DNA of 64,000 nt, from contig NZ_CM002299.1 of assembly GCF_000153125.2 (NCBI RefSeq), forward strand, positions 2,355,075 to 2,419,074. Direction: 5' to 3'. Source of the stretch: Congregibacter litoralis KT71 (lineage in GTDB: Bacteria > Pseudomonadota > Gammaproteobacteria > Pseudomonadales > Halieaceae). Under the pieces are notes generated by a model that made no database searches, was not told the origin of the DNA, and saw only the letters and a program-made list of their open reading frames with translations. Shown one piece after another: positions 38,379-50,670 of this stretch. Position 1 is the first letter of the stretch. Every line of letters begins with the position of its first letter. Both the position numbers and the translations under genes were made by a program.

Positions 38379-38412
38379 AAAAAAAACCCGACCAAAAGGT
38401 CGGGTTAAAAAA
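38379..38412 (-). terminator. bidirectional-looking intrinsic terminator
   Basis: Stem AACCCGACC / GGTCGGGTT with an AAAA loop; A-runs on both sides give a T-tract for either strand. On the minus strand it ends the Pho-controlled 121-residue-protein gene, isolating it from the DUF3833 gene. Confidence 0.88.
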
Positions 38413-38516: not shown

Positions 38517-38882
38517 TTACAGCGACACCGTCCGGCTTACCGCCTGGGTGCCGTAAGCACAGGTCTCGCTGTTACTGAAGCTTTCCAGGCGACTGTGGGC
38601 GATATCCCTATCGCCGGAAGACACACCAAAGAGCAGGCCGTCGATATAACCCAGGGCCTTGGCGTAAATCACATCAACCTGTGCATCGGAAAGATCGCCA
38701 ACGGCCTCATCAAAGCGTGCGTTGAACTGCTCTTCATTAAGATAGCCCAGGGCATCGTCGGCAAGAACGCAACCCAGGTGCTCTGCGGCGCTGAGTTCAA
38801 CCGAGCTCAGGGTGAGAGCCTGGGCCGGCAGGCTGACGATCGCTGCGACTAAGGCTGAAAAAACTACATTGTGGAGTTTCAT
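38517..38882 (-). CDS. small exported protein behind a Pho-box array
   Basis: 121 residues with a clean Sec signal ('NVVFSALVAAIVSLPAQALT', cleavage near Ala-Leu). The mature part of about 100 residues is helical and acidic ('LGYLNEEQFNARFDEAVGDL', 'AQVDVIYAKALGYIDGLLFG') with two cysteines ('HLGCVLAD', 'SETCAYG') that could form a disulfide. I recognise no family. The gene is monocistronic: its own promoter with eight 11-bp-spaced GTCA units lies upstream and a strong terminator downstream. The likely setting is the phosphate-starvation response in the periplasm (inference from the promoter). Confidence 0.8.
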   Translation of the reverse strand: MKLHNVVFSALVAAIVSLPAQALTLSSVELSAAEHLGCVLADDALGYLNEEQFNARFDEAVGDLSDAQVDVIYAKALGYIDGLLFGVSSGDRDIAHSRLESFSNSETCAYGTQAVSRTVSL

Positions 38883-38912: not shown

Positions 38913-39012
38913 ACCATAACGGTGAAATATGACACTTATGTGTCACAAAAATGACAACTAGATGACATCAAGGTGACTATCAAATGACAAAAGCGCGACC
39001 GAAAAGTGACAG
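38913..39012 (-). promoter_or_regulatory. extended Pho-box array (eight 11-bp units) and -10 element
   Basis: Read on the minus strand from 39012, eight consecutive 11-mers each place GTC(A) at the same phase: ctGTCActttt, cgGTCgcgctt, ttGTCAtttga, taGTCAccttg, atGTCAtctag, ttGTCAttttt, gtGaCAcataa, gtGTCAtattt. The PhoB box is defined as direct 11-bp repeats of TGTCA plus an AT-rich spacer. The last TGTCAT (38934-38929) is followed after exactly 10 nt by TATGGT (38918-38913), the expected -10 position of a class II PhoB promoter. Confidence 0.85.
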
Positions 39013-39115: not shown

Positions 39116-40960
39116 TCAGCGACTTCCGATTGCCGCGCGTATCTCATCGAGAATACTCGGATCATCAATGGTCGCGGGCACCTTAAACGGCTGTCCGTCG
39201 GCGATATCGCGCATGGTGCGGCGCAGAATCTTCCCCGAACGGGTTTTTGGCAATCGTTTGACGATGTAGCACTGCTTAAAGGCCGCAACGGGACCAATAG
39301 CCTCCCGGACAGAGGCAACGACCTCCGAGACAATATCCCCGTCAGGGCGGGACACACCGTCGGAAAGGACGATCAACCCCAGGGGCAGCTGCCCCTTGAG
39401 GGCATCCGCCACACCGATAACCGCACACTCAGCAACATCCGGATGCGCAGCCAGAACCTCCTCCATGGCGCCGGTGGACAGGCGATGACCGGCGACGTTA
39501 ATGACATCATCGGTTCTCGCCATGACGAACACGTAGCCATTGTCATCGATGTAGCCCGCGTCTCCCGTCTCGTAAAAGCCGGGGAAGCGTGAGAAATAGG
39601 CGCTCTCAAAACGCTCGTCGGCATTCCACAGCGTCGTAAAGGTGCCCGGCGGCAGGGGCAGGCGTATAGCGAGAGCTCCAATAATGTTCGCCTCTACAAG
39701 TTCGCCCTGCTCATCGAGAACCACCACGTCATAGCCCGGCACCGCCCGTGCCGGTGATCCGGGTACTACCGGCAAGGCTTCCAAACCCAGACAGTTTGCA
39801 CAGATGGGCCAGCCCGTCTCTGTCTGCCACCAGTGGTCAATCACCGGTACGGACAGTTGCTCCTCCGCCCAGTGAAGCGTGTCGGGATCACAGCGCTCTC
39901 CTGCGAGGAACAGAGCTTTTAGACCCGTGAGATCGTAATCAGCCATGAGCTGTGCATGGGGGTCTTCCTTTCGGATAGCCCGAAAAGCCGTGGGCGCCGT
40001 GAACAACACGCGAACATTGTGCTCCTCTATAACCCGCCAGTAAGCCCCGGCATCCGGTGTACCCACGGGTTTACCTTCGTAGAGCAGTGTCGTGTTACCA
40101 CTGAAGAGCGGGCCGTAAACGATGTAACTGTGCCCTACAACCCAGCCCACGTCGGAGGCCGCCCAGAAGACCTCTCCCGGCGACACGTTGTAGATACTTT
40201 TCATACTCCACTTCAGGGCAACGATGCCGCCGGCAGTATCGCGGACGACGCCTTTGGGTTGCCCCGTGGTGCCCGATGTGTAGAGGATGTAGAGGGGATG
40301 ATTTGCCGGCACAGGCACACAATCATGAAGGGGAGCATCCGGCACCACATCGTGCCAGGCAAGATCCCTCCCCTCGACCATGGCTGCCTCAAGCTCCGGA
40401 CGATGGACCACGATGCAACAATCGGGCTTGTGCGCCGCCTGATCAATAGCATCGTCCAGGAGGGGCTTGTAGGCGACAACGCGGCTGGGTTCGATACCGC
40501 AGGACGCCGAGAGAATCAGCCTGGGTGTGGCATCATCGATGCGCACAGCGAGCTCATGGCTGGCGAAGCCCCCGAACACCACGGAGTGCACGGCGCCGAG
40601 ACGCGCACAGGCAAGCATGCCAATAACCGCTTCCGGAATCATGGGCATGTAAATCAGCACACGATCCCCTATGGACACACCCTGCGCAGCCATAGCACCG
40701 GCGCACCGGGCCACGGCCTCAAGCAACTGTGCATAGCTATAGCTACTTTTGTGGTTTGTCACGGGACTGTCGGCAATGAGCGCAAGCTGATCCCCGCGGC
40801 CCTGGGACACGTGTAAATCCAGCGCGTTGTAGCAGGCGTTAGTTACGCCGTCGGGGTACCAGCGATAGAACGGCGGACGAGACTCATCCAACAGTCGTGA
40901 GGGTGCCTCATACCAATAGATATTTTGCGCTTCCGACATCCAGTCAACAGTTACTGTCAT
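39116..40960 (-). CDS. prpE: propionyl-CoA synthetase (PrpE-like)
   Basis: 614-residue ANL-superfamily acyl-CoA synthetase that activates propionate (or acetate) with ATP and CoA. Motifs: 'YILYTSGTTGQPKGVVRDT' (P-loop, with 'GVVRD' typical of PrpE), 'WWQTETGWPI', 'YETGDAGYIDDNGYVFVMAR' (A7/A8), 'DDVINVAGHRLSTGAMEEVL' and 'LPKTRSGKILRRTMR' (A10 catalytic, acetylatable Lys). The 'WYPDGVTNACYNALDLHV' N-terminus also matches propionyl-CoA synthetases. Full length. No methylcitrate-cycle genes are adjacent. Confidence 0.92.
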   Translation of the reverse strand: MTVTVDWMSEAQNIYWYEAPSRLLDESRPPFYRWYPDGVTNACYNALDLHVSQGRGDQLALIADSPVTNHKSSYSYAQLLEAVARCAGAMAAQGVSIGDRVLIYMPMIPEAVIGMLACARLGAVHSVVFGGFASHELAVRIDDATPRLILSASCGIEPSRVVAYKPLLDDAIDQAAHKPDCCIVVHRPELEAAMVEGRDLAWHDVVPDAPLHDCVPVPANHPLYILYTSGTTGQPKGVVRDTAGGIVALKWSMKSIYNVSPGEVFWAASDVGWVVGHSYIVYGPLFSGNTTLLYEGKPVGTPDAGAYWRVIEEHNVRVLFTAPTAFRAIRKEDPHAQLMADYDLTGLKALFLAGERCDPDTLHWAEEQLSVPVIDHWWQTETGWPICANCLGLEALPVVPGSPARAVPGYDVVVLDEQGELVEANIIGALAIRLPLPPGTFTTLWNADERFESAYFSRFPGFYETGDAGYIDDNGYVFVMARTDDVINVAGHRLSTGAMEEVLAAHPDVAECAVIGVADALKGQLPLGLIVLSDGVSRPDGDIVSEVVASVREAIGPVAAFKQCYIVKRLPKTRSGKILRRTMRDIADGQPFKVPATIDDPSILDEIRAAIGSR

Positions 40961-44398: not shown

Positions 44399-47284
44399 TT
44401 AGAGTGAACCTTCAACAGTCCAACCAGCCCACCAGGGATCTGAACCGTCAGGGTTCACGGCACCGCTGTAATCCGTGGGATCAAAGAAGTCCGGATCGAA
44501 GTCCTGGGGATCACCACCAGACACGCTGGGCAGCGCGAAGGAGCCACCGATGGCGTCCCAATCGATTGGGGTGAGGCCAGAGGCCGCCGCAGCCTGGGAG
44601 GACAGGATGTCATCCAACGCTGCCGCTTCTACAACCACAGAGCTGTTACCTACACTCGGCTCATTTGACAGTGTTCCACCCGCACCAGACTCATTTGCAC
44701 AGTCCTGCACCCAGTTGTTGAACACCAGGGCGGTGTTGATGTTGGTCTCGGCGCCATCTTCGATCTGCGCACAGGTATCAAAGGTACCCGTCGCATCGTC
44801 GGCAACCGTGATCACCATATTGTGGAAGAAGCCACCGGTGCTGTCTTTGAAGCGCATGATGAAGGGAGAGTCGTCCGCCTGCTTGTCCGCGATCACCGTG
44901 GTGTTGACCACCGTGGGCTTGGACAACCATGCGAGAGAGCCTTCCGTATCCATCTCAAAGGCTTCACCGCTACCCTGGCCATGCTGCTTCACGAGCACAT
45001 ACTGCATGTTGCCCTGGAAGCCTTCATCCCAATCGACAGAGTCATCGTTAGCGTTCACGACCACCAGGTGCTTCACGTTGGCGGTACCGCCGTAGAACTC
45101 CACACCATCGTCCGTCGTCTCGTAGATCTGGATGAAGTCAAACTCCGTGCCGGAACCAACAGCATTCAAGCTCAGGGCGTTGATCTCGTCACCGTCAGAG
45201 TTAATGGCAACACCGTTCTCCGCAAGGATCACGTAGCGCATGACACCACTGTCGTCCGCAGGATTCTCACCACCGATGAAGCCCGCTTCGCCCTCACCAT
45301 CAACGTTACAGGGTGTAGAGTCACAGGCATTGTGCGGAGCAAAACCACTGATCTGCACGCCGCCCCACTCGCCCGGTCCGACGATATCGTCGTCAACGGA
45401 AGAGAACACGATGGGCGCCATGGCCGTACCTACAGCGTTGATCTTGCTGCCGCGCGTAATGTGGAGCACAGAGGCCGCCAGGGGATCATCAGAGGGCAGG
45501 CCCACAACGGATACACCCGGAGCGATAGTCAGCGTTGCATTCACCAGAGAAGCACCACCCTGACAGGTCGTCGCGTCGGTCAGGAGGCAGTTACCGTTAC
45601 CGATGTTCACCCGTCCATCCAGCTGATAGACATTACCGGCCGTCAGCGTCAGATCACTGAGATAGGTACCATTGAGACGGCATACACCAGCCTCAACTTC
45701 TTCCGTGCCTGCGGGGCAGCCTTCGACTACGGGAGGAATAGCGTTACCCGCACCGAAGTCCAGGGTCCAGCCGGCCCACCAGGGGTCAGATCCATCAGGA
45801 TTCACCGCACCCATGTACGTCGTGGGCTCAAAGAAGCTCGCATCGAAGTCTTGAGGATCGCCGTCCGCCATGCTGGGCAAATCAAAGGCAGCGCCAATGG
45901 CATCCCAATCGATGGCCGTGATACCTGAGGCCGCAGGCGCCTGAGACGCCAGGATGTCATCCAGGGCCGCCGCTGCAATAACGACAGAATCGTTATCAAC
46001 GGAGGGCTCATTGGACAGCATGCCACCCGCACCAGAGATGTTGGAGCAATCCTGGATCCAGTTATTGAACACCAGAGAGGTATTGATGTTGGCCTCGGCA
46101 CCGTCTTCGATCTGTGCACAGGTGTCGAAAGTGCCCGTCGCATCGCCGGCAACAGTCATAACCATGTTGTGGAAGAATCCACCGGTGCTGTCCTTGAAGC
46201 GGGTGATGAAAGGCGAGTCGTCGGCCTGCTTATCAGCGATGACCGTGGTGTTTACTATTGTTGGCTTGGACAGCCAGGCGAGAGAGCCCTCGGTATCCAT
46301 TTCAAACGCTTCACCGCTGCCGTCGCCGTGCTGCTTGACGAGAACAAACTGCATGTTGCCCTGATACCCTTCGTCCCAGTCAACGGAGTCATCGTTGGCA
46401 TTGGAAACGACGAGGTGCTTGATGTTGGCTGTGCCTCCATAAAACTCCACACCGTCGTCCGATGTCTCGTGGATCTGAATGAAATCAAACTCCGTGCCAG
46501 AGCCCACGGCATTCAGGCTGAGACCATTGATCTCATCACCGTCGGAGTTAATGGCAACACCGTTTTCCGCAAGAACCACATAGCGCATCACGCCGCTGTT
46601 GTCCGCAGGATCATCACCACCTATAAAGCCTGCTTCGCCCTCACCGTCCACGTTACAGGGATCAGTGTCACAGGCGTTGTGGGGTGCGAAACCAGAAATC
46701 TGCACGCCGCCCCACTCGCCGGGTGTGGAAAAGTCCGGGTCAACGGAAGAGAAGATAATAGGCGCTGCAGCAGTACCCACAGCGTTAATGGAACTACCGC
46801 GGGTGATGTGGAGCACCGCCGCACTCAGGGGATCATCTGAAGGGAGACCCCGTACGCTGACACCGGGCTCAATGGTCAATGTCGCGTTGACCAGGGCATC
46901 ACCGTTGTCACAGGTCGTAGCGTCTGCGAGGAGGCAGTTGCCGTTACCGATGTTAACCCGACCATCCAAATGATAAACGTTGCCCGCAGCCAGAGTCAGA
47001 TCACTCGTATAGGTGCCGCTGAGCAAGCAGGTTCCTGAGGCCACCTCTTCGGTCCCCGTGGGACAGGCCGTGGGATCGGTACCGCCATTGCCGCCACCAT
47101 TGCCACCGTCATCGCCGCCGTCACCGCCATCGCTACAGCTGCCATCGCCGTTGCAGACGTTGCCGCCGCCGGTATCAGTCGTTGGCGCTTCGATAATAAT
47201 CGATGCGCTATCGCCCTCGGAGCAACCGGACAGGCCCACCAGGGCCCCGGAGGCTACGAGAGCTAATACAAACTGCTTGTTCAT
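44399..47284 (-). CDS. outer-membrane lipoprotein made of two tandem ~440-residue repeats
   Basis: 961 residues. Signal 'FVLALVASGALVGLSGCSEG' with lipobox LSGC and Ser at +2 (outer-membrane sorting), then an Asp/Gly-rich flexible linker (about 38-70), then two copies of one domain (about 74-522 and 523-961). Each copy starts 'CPxGTEEV', continues 'GNVYxLDGRVNIGNGNCLL', 'GEWGGVQISGFAPHNACD', 'CNVDGEGEAGFIGG', 'DDGVEFYGGTANxKHLVV', 'NDDSVDWDEG' and closes with 'GAVNPDGSDPWWAGWT'. The periodic short strands suggest a parallel beta-helix; many Asp/Asn could bind calcium. No catalytic motif recognised. ATG at 47284 with GGGAG 8 nt upstream. Co-transcribed with the TonB receptor, probably as its substrate-capturing partner (inference). 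Confidence 0.85.
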   Translation of the reverse strand: MNKQFVLALVASGALVGLSGCSEGDSASIIIEAPTTDTGGGNVCNGDGSCSDGGDGGDDGGNGGGNGGTDPTACPTGTEEVASGTCLLSGTYTSDLTLAAGNVYHLDGRVNIGNGNCLLADATTCDNGDALVNATLTIEPGVSVRGLPSDDPLSAAVLHITRGSSINAVGTAAAPIIFSSVDPDFSTPGEWGGVQISGFAPHNACDTDPCNVDGEGEAGFIGGDDPADNSGVMRYVVLAENGVAINSDGDEINGLSLNAVGSGTEFDFIQIHETSDDGVEFYGGTANIKHLVVSNANDDSVDWDEGYQGNMQFVLVKQHGDGSGEAFEMDTEGSLAWLSKPTIVNTTVIADKQADDSPFITRFKDSTGGFFHNMVMTVAGDATGTFDTCAQIEDGAEANINTSLVFNNWIQDCSNISGAGGMLSNEPSVDNDSVVIAAAALDDILASQAPAASGITAIDWDAIGAAFDLPSMADGDPQDFDASFFEPTTYMGAVNPDGSDPWWAGWTLDFGAGNAIPPVVEGCPAGTEEVEAGVCRLNGTYLSDLTLTAGNVYQLDGRVNIGNGNCLLTDATTCQGGASLVNATLTIAPGVSVVGLPSDDPLAASVLHITRGSKINAVGTAMAPIVFSSVDDDIVGPGEWGGVQISGFAPHNACDSTPCNVDGEGEAGFIGGENPADDSGVMRYVILAENGVAINSDGDEINALSLNAVGSGTEFDFIQIYETTDDGVEFYGGTANVKHLVVVNANDDSVDWDEGFQGNMQYVLVKQHGQGSGEAFEMDTEGSLAWLSKPTVVNTTVIADKQADDSPFIMRFKDSTGGFFHNMVITVADDATGTFDTCAQIEDGAETNINTALVFNNWVQDCANESGAGGTLSNEPSVGNSSVVVEAAALDDILSSQAAAASGLTPIDWDAIGGSFALPSVSGGDPQDFDPDFFDPTDYSGAVNPDGSDPWWAGWTVEGSL
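44402..47065 (-). repeat. internal gene duplication (two ~1.3-kb units)
   Basis: 47065-45719 and 45718-44402 encode near-parallel domains; long stretches differ at few positions (for example 'SLAWLSKPT' and 'TTVIADKQADDSPFI' occur in both). The nucleotide copies have diverged mainly at synonymous sites. Confidence 0.9.
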
Positions 47285-47336
47285 CACTATACTCCCTAGT
47301 GGATTTTATCGACCCGATTGGGTCCTCTAGTACTGC

Positions 47337-50300
47337 TTAGAATTCCCAGTCGAGTCCGATCTGGAAAGTAGTGCCCTTTTCATAGAACTGGAAAACTTCA
47401 CCGCCCTGGGTGTATTCCACTTCCGCATCAAAAATGTTTTCGATACGCGCCTTCAGGGACGCCGTCTCTGAAATGTCGTAGCGATACACGAGATTCATTT
47501 CACCCCGCTCCTCCAGGAGCACATTGGGTAAGCCGAGAATTCCCACGTCGGCGATGGATTCACCGTTATGGTTGTAGAGAAGCGTCAGTTGATGTCCGCC
47601 GGGAACATTGTCGTAGCCGATGACAAAGTTTGCGGTGTATTCGGGCTGCCCCTGGAGTGCGCGGGCATCGCCACTGAGAAGCGTGACCTCAGACTCGATG
47701 TAAGCAGCGTTGAAGGACACAAAGAGCGTGTTGTTGTAATCATCCGTCAACAGGAACTCTTTCCGGCCCTCGACTTCAAATCCGTAAAGCTCCGCCGCTT
47801 CGGAATTCTGAAAGGTCCGGGAGTTACTGGCGGTTCCCGATGCGGCCTGATAAACACGCTCGATGGGGTCCGTCATGTCCTTGTAGAACACCGCCGCCGA
47901 AACATTGTCAGTATCGTTATCACCGAAATACCACTCCCAGCGAAGATCGGCGTTGAAAACGTCGGAGACCGTGAGATTGGGATTACCACGAACACGCACG
48001 TTGAATTCGTTATCGAAGAAAACCGCGTTAGAGGCTTCCTTGAAATCCGGTCTCGCCACGGTCTGGCTGATGGCCAGGCGCAACTGCTGGGTATCGGAGT
48101 AGAACCAGTTGATGCCCAGGGCCGGCAGGAAGCTGCCCTCGTCAACGATGCCCTGAACAGGGTTACCCGTTGTAAGGTCAAAGGTATCTGTCACCTGCTC
48201 GTACTGCTCGTACCGAGCGCCTGCAATCACTTCCCATACGCCGTCAAAGGTATGGTCGTACATGGCATAGATGCTGTTGTAATCCAGCTTCGCCTCGTAT
48301 TCGTCCGATACCTGGGTACGCACCTGAAAGAGAAAGCCGGTCGTCGGACTGTCCTGAACACCGCCCTGGGTATTGTCTTCGCAGGTAACCGTTCCGGGCC
48401 CCTCGCCACAGACAAAAATATTGTCCGTCACCAGAACATTCGGCGACGCGCTCAGGGTGGCATCAGCGCCGTTGTTAAAGTAACCGTAGGTGGCACTGTC
48501 GGCGTCACGCTCGCGGTAGATAGCCTGGGCACCAAAGCGGAGCTGTCCAAAACTCGCACCGTCATCGTACAGATCCCAGGTAATATCAAAGGAGCCGTCG
48601 AAGTTGTTATCCGTCAGATCATCCCAGCGTTTGGAGGAGCTACCCGAGGAAAAGAAGAAACCGTTGAGGAGATCGCCCTGCTCGTCGTTGGGGCTGGAAA
48701 AATCGTAGCCCGCGCGTAAATCCGCCGGCTCTGTGAGATTCGCCTCGGCGTTAAAACGAACATCGGTTCGACCCGGCACATATCGGCGGGCCTGGCTGCC
48801 TGTAAACTGCCATTCGCCAAAGATAGATCCGTCTTCGTTTAAAAAGTGAGAGCCGACAATTTGCGTGGAGAAGAACTGTCGCTCTTCCCACTGACTCGTT
48901 GCCTGATACACCGAGCGAAACTCATCGCCCTCGCGACCTACGGAGCGTTCTACAAAACTCTCCGTCGAGCGGGACATCACATTGTTCCACTCAAAAGTGT
49001 TGTTGCCGATGTTGTAGCCGATGGACACAAGTCCGGAGATATCGATGTTCTGAGAATAGGACTCGTAACTCTGATCGTCCGCGACGATCCCGCTGGCGCT
49101 ATAGGTCCGTCGAATACCGTTACCCCGCTGCGACCACTCATTGGAGTAGTTCACCGCCGCATAAAATCCGAGCTCACCCTCACCCAGGTAGAACAGGTCA
49201 CCGTAGTTAACGCCGAGGCCGCCGTTAGGTGTGGTTTCGGAAAAATCGAGGTCCCAGTCCTGGGAAAGCAGTACACCGGCGGAGCGCTGAAGCTCTCGGA
49301 GAACGCTTTGCTGCAGCGTAAAGGTATTACCTTCATCATCGGTAAAAGTTCCGCCGTCGGACACAATGTCGCCGATGGTGGATACGAGAATATTTTCTTT
49401 TCTCGAGCCGTCGTCCCAGCCGATAAAATCGAAAGTGCCATCGGCGGGGTCAACAGCGACGGTGTTTCCGGTCAAGTCAGTCACGTAACCCAGGGACGCC
49501 GTAATGCTCCCCGCACGCTCGTCAGGAAAGGTCTTGGTGTTGATTACCAGATTACCGCCTGTGGACTCGCCTGGCATGAACGGCAGGAAGGTCTTCTTGA
49601 TATCCAGCTGGTTAACGAAATTGGAGGGAAACAAATCCAGGGGAACCGTACGCTTGGTCGGGTTCGTCGACGGCATCGTGGCGTTGTTCAGGGTGGACGT
49701 GACGTAGCGTCCTCCGAGGCCACGGATAAAGACGTATTTGTCGTCCTGCACCGCAACGCCGGGCACGCGAATCACCGATGCGGCGACGTCGGAGTCCCCA
49801 AAGCGCGCGAGCTCCTCGACACCCAGGGTGTCGACAATCAGGTTGGTGTCCCGCTCCGACAGTTCAAAACCGCTGGCGTCGAAGGTTCCAAGGACAAAGA
49901 CTTCCTCGATTTGCGGTGCGGCAATAGAAAAGCCTGCGTCAGCCTCGGGCAAATTAATTTGCACCCCGCGCGTTACGCCCCCGACCACGCGCACAGAGCG
50001 AGAGACACCGTTGGTGGTGACCCGATAGATACCGCGAGGAACCGTCTTGGTCGCAACACCCTGGGCATTGGTGGATACCCCCCCCTGGCCGTTGGAAATC
50101 ACCACTAGCTGGCTGGCGGCGGCATCAGAGCCCTTGCGCACGGTAATCTGCAGCTCACCTGTGGGCACTTCCCGGCGGTCCGCCGTGGACTCTGTGCGGG
50201 AATACACCTCAACGATGGACTGATTGTCACCGCTTCCCAGATTGACGATCACATCGACAAGTTGCCCGGATGCGGAGGAAAAACGATCACGCTGCTTGGC

Positions 50301-50543
50301 ACCGTCGGCGCTCGTAACGGTAAGCACCCGCTGCCCGCTGCCGGGGAGGTCGACAAACAGGGACCCATCCCGTCGAGTGACCCCGACGGCTTCGCCGTCA
50401 ATGGCCACGGCGGCACCGGCGACGGCAGCGCCCTGATCGAACACATAGACAAGAAGTTCGTCCGCAGCCTTGGCTGGGTGAGTGAAGCACAGGAGGAACA
50501 GCAAAACTGGCAGAAAACGCCGGGCGCCAAACACTTGTGTCAT
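47337..50543 (-). CDS. TonB-dependent receptor with N-terminal carboxypeptidase-like domains
   Basis: 1068 residues; outer-membrane active transporter driven by TonB-ExbBD. Signal peptide 'FLPVLLFLLCFTHPAKA'; two small beta-sandwich (carboxypeptidase-regulatory-like) domains at about 28-95 and 128-200; plug domain with 'DSDVAASVIRVPGVAVQDDK', 'YVFIRGLGGRYVTSTLNN' and 'MPGESTGGNLVINTKTFPDE'; a 22-stranded barrel ending 'FQIGLDWEF'. The plug resembles receptors of the large-substrate type in Caulobacter-like and marine bacteria rather than siderophore receptors. ATG with AGAGG about 5 nt upstream. A Pho box lies upstream and the duplicated lipoprotein gene follows after 52 nt. Confidence 0.92.
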   Translation of the reverse strand: MTQVFGARRFLPVLLFLLCFTHPAKAADELLVYVFDQGAAVAGAAVAIDGEAVGVTRRDGSLFVDLPGSGQRVLTVTSADGAKQRDRFSSASGQLVDVIVNLGSGDNQSIVEVYSRTESTADRREVPTGELQITVRKGSDAAASQLVVISNGQGGVSTNAQGVATKTVPRGIYRVTTNGVSRSVRVVGGVTRGVQINLPEADAGFSIAAPQIEEVFVLGTFDASGFELSERDTNLIVDTLGVEELARFGDSDVAASVIRVPGVAVQDDKYVFIRGLGGRYVTSTLNNATMPSTNPTKRTVPLDLFPSNFVNQLDIKKTFLPFMPGESTGGNLVINTKTFPDERAGSITASLGYVTDLTGNTVAVDPADGTFDFIGWDDGSRKENILVSTIGDIVSDGGTFTDDEGNTFTLQQSVLRELQRSAGVLLSQDWDLDFSETTPNGGLGVNYGDLFYLGEGELGFYAAVNYSNEWSQRGNGIRRTYSASGIVADDQSYESYSQNIDISGLVSIGYNIGNNTFEWNNVMSRSTESFVERSVGREGDEFRSVYQATSQWEERQFFSTQIVGSHFLNEDGSIFGEWQFTGSQARRYVPGRTDVRFNAEANLTEPADLRAGYDFSSPNDEQGDLLNGFFFSSGSSSKRWDDLTDNNFDGSFDITWDLYDDGASFGQLRFGAQAIYRERDADSATYGYFNNGADATLSASPNVLVTDNIFVCGEGPGTVTCEDNTQGGVQDSPTTGFLFQVRTQVSDEYEAKLDYNSIYAMYDHTFDGVWEVIAGARYEQYEQVTDTFDLTTGNPVQGIVDEGSFLPALGINWFYSDTQQLRLAISQTVARPDFKEASNAVFFDNEFNVRVRGNPNLTVSDVFNADLRWEWYFGDNDTDNVSAAVFYKDMTDPIERVYQAASGTASNSRTFQNSEAAELYGFEVEGRKEFLLTDDYNNTLFVSFNAAYIESEVTLLSGDARALQGQPEYTANFVIGYDNVPGGHQLTLLYNHNGESIADVGILGLPNVLLEERGEMNLVYRYDISETASLKARIENIFDAEVEYTQGGEVFQFYEKGTTFQIGLDWEF

Positions 50544-50614: not shown

Positions 50615-50670
50615 ATCCTAGGGGCGTAATGTGACGCTTATGTTATCGAGATATGACAAATTTATGACAA
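50615..50670 (-). promoter_or_regulatory. Pho box and -10 element of the TonB-receptor operon
   Basis: Minus strand from 50670: ttGTCATaaat, ttGTCATatct, cgataacataa, gcGTCACatta, then 6 nt and TAGGAT. The first two 11-mers are a near-consensus PhoB box; a degenerate third and a partial fourth unit keep the 11-bp phase. The fourth GTCAC is followed after exactly 10 nt by TAGGAT (50620-50615) as -10, the same geometry as the array at 38913-39012. The start codon lies about 70 nt downstream. Confidence 0.82.

Follow-up and report, generated by a model that had tools for sequence, protein, structure and literature searches.

The window, a stretch of 64,000 nucleotides from the single 4.35-Mb contig that makes up the genome of Congregibacter litoralis KT71, contains an eight-unit, 11-bp-phased Pho-box array (38924..39011, minus strand), which was recognized by direct reading and with a matrix trained on phoB promoters and is predicted to be an operator of PhoB. 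It is located between two genes, namely an acyl-CoA-synthetase-type gene (39116-40960; assigned by resemblance, a homologue of it matching AMP-binding and ACAS_N) and a 121-codon gene on the minus strand (38517..38882), whose product represents an unnamed family and is judged by eye to be exported from its signal-like N-terminus. Read directly on the minus strand, the units are TGTCACTTTTC (39011-39001), GGTCGCGCTTT (39000-38990), TGTCATTTGAT (38989-38979), AGTCACCTTGA (38978-38968), TGTCATCTAGT (38967-38957), TGTCATTTTTG (38956-38946), TGACACATAAG (38945-38935) and TGTCATATTTC (38934-38924). They follow each other at exactly 11 bp without any gap and are direct repeats of the CTGTCAT type, of which a Pho box contains at least two. 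The core tetranucleotide is GTCA in six of the eight units, GTCG in the degenerate second and GACA in the seventh. A -10-like element, TATGGT, was read 5 nt past the last 11-mer (38913..38918, minus strand). The first-pass annotation of this DNA had placed and counted the eight GTC(A) units at exact 11-bp steps correctly, and its degenerate unit is the GTCG copy; the unit that it took to be inverted, however, appears to have changed by a single base and not to be flipped, because two congeners, G001 and G003, share the GACA of the seventh unit, and TGACAC is also found as a unit in Escherichia coli ugpB.

Tandem repeats of this kind might arise by chance or low complexity and carry no regulatory meaning, and G207 provides an example of perfect 11-bp GTCA repeats that lack an evident Pho context. 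A three-unit pattern (at most one mismatch) nevertheless matched six times in the window, always inside the array, while dinucleotide shuffles gave a mean of 0.17 matches and none of 100 reached six. In 100 Markov simulations of the window, with a unit defined by at least three of the four GTCA letters, the longest in-phase run comprised three (56 simulations), four (40) or five units (4), but never eight. A chance origin was rejected on these grounds, and the matrix scores and the conservation upstream of homologues reported below also speak against a meaningless repeat, whose probability we regard as negligible. An Rfam scan of the array region returned no match.

The host harbors the genes phoB-phoR-pstS-pstC-pstA-pstB-phoU in one run. 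PhoB, PhoR, PstA, PstB and PhoU exceed a model cut-off; PstC and PstS remain below theirs, yet lie within the same pst gene run. The PhoB protein passes the PhoB cut-off and is 56% identical to its E. coli equivalent, with 19 of 20 residues being the same in the stretch NVYVEERTVDVHIRRLRKAL, which we take to hold the recognition helix. The host phoB promoter carries CTGTCATCTTTGTGTCAT, and 29 of the 31 phoB promoters from 30 related genomes and our own exceed the 95% shuffle level. The unit matrix was established from 58 units of the 29 phoB promoters that passed the seed cut-off, the own genome included. It assigns scores of 11.4, -2.0, 14.5, 1.4, 12.2, 14.4, 3.2 and 14.5 to units 1 to 8. The matrix scan that the first-pass annotation had proposed thus did not give low scores throughout, since all eight units rank in about the top 1% of the window on both strands, and five even in the top 0.01%. 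At two, four, six and eight units the window has no better chain than the array, the next site being a four-unit box at 50669-50626; in sequence, the array resembles the boxes of phoB promoters from the same and related genomes.

A different regulator of the OmpR/PhoB family, e.g., an ArcA-like or CusR/CopR-like protein, could also read repeats of this type. The genome encodes further family members, and a heavy-metal-type one has two GTCA-like units upstream. ArcA belongs to the same superfamily, and according to the section of PMC3798270 that bears on this point its sites are likewise 11-bp direct repeats, mostly with three to five elements (92 of 158); they differ from the array in regulator and signal, and no conserved promoter position is reported in that section (PMC3798270). 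However, the matrix derives from phoB promoters, such boxes precede genes for PhoX, alkaline phosphatase, a porin and, by eye, a PstS, and PhoB closely resembles its E. coli equivalent in the DNA-binding part. A regulator other than PhoB is accordingly very improbable.

The genome searches for homologues of the 121-amino-acid protein covered one family, the Halieaceae (140 genomes), and an order sample (390 genomes). Homologues were found in 42 of the 140 family genomes and in 12 of the 390 order genomes, all 12 among the 18 that belong to the same family and none among the other 372. Upstream regions were obtained for 41 of the 42 homologues, L084 being left out because it had no local tblastn match. 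In all 41, the best two-unit score lies above the 95% level of shuffled upstream regions, and in 40 of them above the 99% level, whereas only 6 of 161 control upstream regions (other mechanical open frames from 20 loci) pass the 95% level and 4 the 99% level. Four of these 161 score above 10; the controls that stand out include a phoB copy and, as judged by eye, a PstS gene. The difference corresponds to a Fisher p of about 1e-36 if kinship is ignored. The in-phase chain comprises eight units in this genome only, four in five, three in 21 and two in 14 of the homologues, and several genera have their best site in a second cluster, 140-255 nt upstream. Conservation of array and gene together, as considered in the first-pass annotation, hence holds for the in-phase boxes (41 of 41) but not for the length of eight units. 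The two to four units of the other 40 homologues suggest that PhoB control is old and that the length of the array is lineage-specific. In the same-genus genome G002 (L046), the intergenic region upstream of the homologue harbors a weak Pho box together with about five imperfect repeats of ~15 bp that resemble CTGTCACTTAGGCAA by eye.

The spacing to the -10 element is conserved as well. Among 31 testable promoters, 20 carry TANNNT exactly 5 nt past the last unit compared with 2.3 expected; five offsets were allowed and all 20 fell on the same one, and 10 of the 41 promoters were skipped due to a weak or truncated context. Nine of the remaining 11, including that of the window, fit the 5-nt spacing by eye if one or two further in-phase units are included. 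This arrangement of box and -10 element corresponds to that of a PhoB-activated promoter. The independently trained PhoB matrix, the conservation in front of all 41 homologues, the -10 spacing and the canonical phoB-phoR-pst-phoU operon together support the PhoB control proposed in the first-pass annotation, and the array almost certainly represents a PhoB operator controlling the exported 121-amino-acid protein.

The length of the array has to be considered separately. The congeners G001 and G003 have four units and G002 has three; an alignment with G001 shows agreement over the three proximal units, the upstream ones being additional in this genome. A second eight-position in-phase chain, weaker than the array, was found in the own genome near 3498682 (L027/L028) with a looser unit cut-off (-8). 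Seven of its units score about -1 or better and one -4; it overlaps two mechanical open frames and precedes a gene that resembles choice-of-anchor I by eye. A five-unit pattern (at most three mismatches) gave 137 matches, with each overlapping register of an array counted by itself, in 58 of the 140 family genomes; the reversed pattern, used as a control, gave 52 in 38 genomes. Among the 30 matches that were inspected, some precede genes for PhoX (by Pfam in L138, by eye in L139 and L141), choice-of-anchor I (L123 and L132, Pfam run), alkaline phosphatase (L145), a porin (L134) and a TonB receptor (L146), and others genes for protein C of the type II secretion system (L128) and UDP-glucose dehydrogenase (L119). 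The second chain and the family-wide five-unit matches led us to reject the idea that long arrays occur at this locus only. A seven-unit pattern matched in 12 of the 390 order genomes, several of the matches being plain tandem repeats, and none equals the matrix sum of the window (70), which is followed by those of the perfect repeat in G207 (35) and of L179 (25). The G207 repeat (L180), a perfect 11-bp GTCACGAGTAC tandem, illustrates that a plain repeat can form a long in-phase GTCA array.

Comparable arrangements are present in E. coli. By the same matrix, ugpB has one chain of six in-phase 11-bp units, including TGACAC (five units over the cut-off, with gaps tolerated to -8); its units are fewer and weaker than those of the array, and its product is a glycerol-3-phosphate binding protein. 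The gene is described as PhoB-activated (PMC10294691) and as having "multiple PHO boxes" (PMC4415409). The tandem 11-bp units of pstS include one chain of five, four of them over the cut-off, but its clusters stand apart and do not form one run of eight, and phoA has a pair with one unit over the cut-off. The restriction of Pho boxes to two to four units in the first-pass annotation was therefore too narrow, as the approximately six units of ugpB document, and its view of the array as unusual is valid for the length but not for a lack of precedent, given ugpB and the second chain of the same genome. The array is the longest strong one seen here and of a known kind, because the own second chain, the ugpB chain and the five-unit matches in the family are of the same type. 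Among the papers listed in a literature search, no title or abstract dealt with this array or its protein, and no paper of the library searched mentions Halieaceae together with PhoB.

It is a substantial possibility, if short of probable, that PhoB control is real but depends on the two to four promoter-proximal units only, the upstream ones representing a neutral lineage-specific expansion. The two to four units of the other 40 homologues examined and the absence of the upstream units from G001 would fit such an expansion, as would the degenerate second and the weak fourth unit. However, the spacers differ among the units, which argues against recent slippage; of the upstream units, 1 and 3 still reach 11 and 15 bits, and another eight-position chain, albeit a weaker one, is present in the same genome. 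On balance, we lean slightly towards extra units that would change the response.

The identity of the regulated protein is less obvious. As the first-pass annotation had supposed, it belongs to no family known to Pfam or NCBIfam (E up to 1), and a Pfam search with 29 relatives (E up to 10) gave scattered weak rows from nine families, none of them Rap2 or Tai4, with filters that drop most weak matches. The family profile matches 462 database proteins; among the 120 matches listed, the named ones are hypothetical or uncharacterized with the exception of P0014, whose label "ABC-type substrate-binding" was not credited; the matches include proteins of C. brevis and C. variabilis. Conserved features are the cysteines C38 and C108 and an A-GY-DGL-F stretch. 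A terminator-like hairpin with a T run (38385..38406, minus strand), located ~110 bp past the stop codon, may end a single-gene transcript, two such hairpins in the stretch being a weak excess over the shuffle mean of 1.1. The AlphaFold model is a helical bundle (mean predicted local distance difference test [pLDDT] 85.7, predicted template modelling score [pTM] 0.70). Fold comparisons were weak, but Rap2a, Rap2b and Tai4 recur among unrelated rows in both of them, and Rap2a is the top Foldseek row. These are periplasmic immunity proteins that are, like the model of the 121-amino-acid protein, small and helical, and a periplasmic inhibitor or immunity-like protein with such a fold, made in phosphate starvation, would be an alternative to an uptake accessory. 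No sequence relationship with Rap2 or Tai4 was found either in the PDB search with the family profile (best E 0.07) or by Pfam on the relatives, and we consider an immunity-like role unlikely.

The neighborhood may rather point to uptake. The four-unit box at 50626..50669 (minus strand), with a degenerate third unit, lies upstream of a TonB-dependent receptor gene (47337..50543, minus strand), which is followed 49 bp downstream by a large lipoprotein gene with a lipobox by eye (44399..47287, minus strand); both are located 5.5 kb from the 121-codon gene. SusCD-like pairs likewise consist of a TonB receptor gene beside a large lipoprotein gene, but the lipoprotein of the window differs in family, as its listed homologues carry PF28492. 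The pair is likely to constitute a phosphate-starvation uptake operon. Receptor homologues that are 27-46% identical lie near the 121-codon gene in other genera, and receptor and window-type lipoprotein are both within the stretch in 14 of 20 longer loci, which we chose from the 42; three have one of them and three neither. A DUF3833 gene is near the homologue in 17 of the 42 short loci. A second small exported protein (alignment A3) is present in 41 of the 42 genomes with the 121-amino-acid protein compared with 30 of the 98 others, and in 15 genomes its gene is, by eye, within 1 kb of the homologue. In G051 (L076/L160), the homologue is directly adjoined by a second gene for a PhoB-type regulator, which passes the model cut-off, with receptor and lipoprotein genes alongside. 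Due to these links of neighborhood and co-occurrence (DUF3833, receptor and lipoprotein, second small protein, second phoB), we favor an accessory of phosphorus uptake across the outer membrane as a best guess, albeit a tentative one.

The repeats, their phase, the matrix score, the -10 spacing, the conservation and the gene linkage are all read from sequence, and they suggest the following scenario. When phosphate is scarce, PhoR would phosphorylate PhoB, and PhoB dimers would occupy the 11-bp units in a head-to-tail arrangement. Those nearest the promoter would stand in for the -35 element, RNA polymerase would start from the TATGGT element, and the output would be the small exported protein expressed under phosphate starvation. 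The upstream extension to eight units probably adds cooperative binding and would thereby cause a higher or sharper induction. The protein, predicted to be a periplasmic four-helix protein, would most likely serve the PhoB-controlled outer-membrane uptake set of receptor and lipoprotein.

Several observations weigh against this scenario. The homologues are not independent, many of them coming from few genera; the same-genus homologue L046 (G002) scores only 6.7, and the gene-proximal box is weak in L065 (8.9), L072 (7.4) and L077 (8.0). A sigma-70 scan found no -35/-10 pair, which would fit a PhoB-activated promoter but says little because shuffles average only 0.4. Eight units are not conserved even within the genus, and their length may consequently be neutral. 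Of the 30 five-unit matches that were inspected, 13 are not Pho-like as judged from their negative matrix sums, and some of those that are Pho-like, wholly or in part, are located upstream of genes that have no evident role in the Pho response. The linkage loci were hand-chosen, one or both partners are missing from 6 of the 20, the clustering of the receptor family is loose, and only 9 of 12 testable receptor-operon upstream regions exceed the 95% null and 6 of 12 the 99% null. Nevertheless, we consider it very likely that the locus is best explained by a PhoB operator, with a probable effect of its length and, more tentatively, an uptake-linked exported protein. A bolder version, which we regard as rather doubtful, is that the 121-amino-acid protein is the dedicated periplasmic part of an undescribed phosphorus-scavenging outer-membrane system typical of the family, comprising the TonB-dependent receptor, the PF28492 lipoprotein, the 121-amino-acid protein and the second small exported protein, the eight units making its gene one of the most steeply phosphate-controlled of the cell.

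With the PhoB operator as the preferred reading, a coastal marine clade would gain an unnamed gene family in its likely response to phosphate starvation. The spread of multi-repeat operators among PhoB-type regulators is called unclear in the pertinent section of PMC3798270. The promoters of the homologues, whose in-phase PhoB units range from two to eight, constitute a natural series for measuring the effect of extra units, and would allow both the spread and the role of such operators to be measured directly.

Same-strand Pho boxes in front of the second small exported gene exceed the 95% null in 3 of 10 linked and 5 of 12 unlinked loci, and the 99% null in none of the 22. Reverse-orientation Pho-box pairs, facing away from this gene, score at least 10 in 10 of 12 loci (L197 and L199-L207). 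No obvious long open frame was seen in those 10 and no Rfam match in the four scanned; the pairs possibly belong to a small gene or RNA. In G004, a genome without the 121-amino-acid protein, the second small exported gene is divergent from a PrpE-like gene, with a five-unit array between the two (L117).
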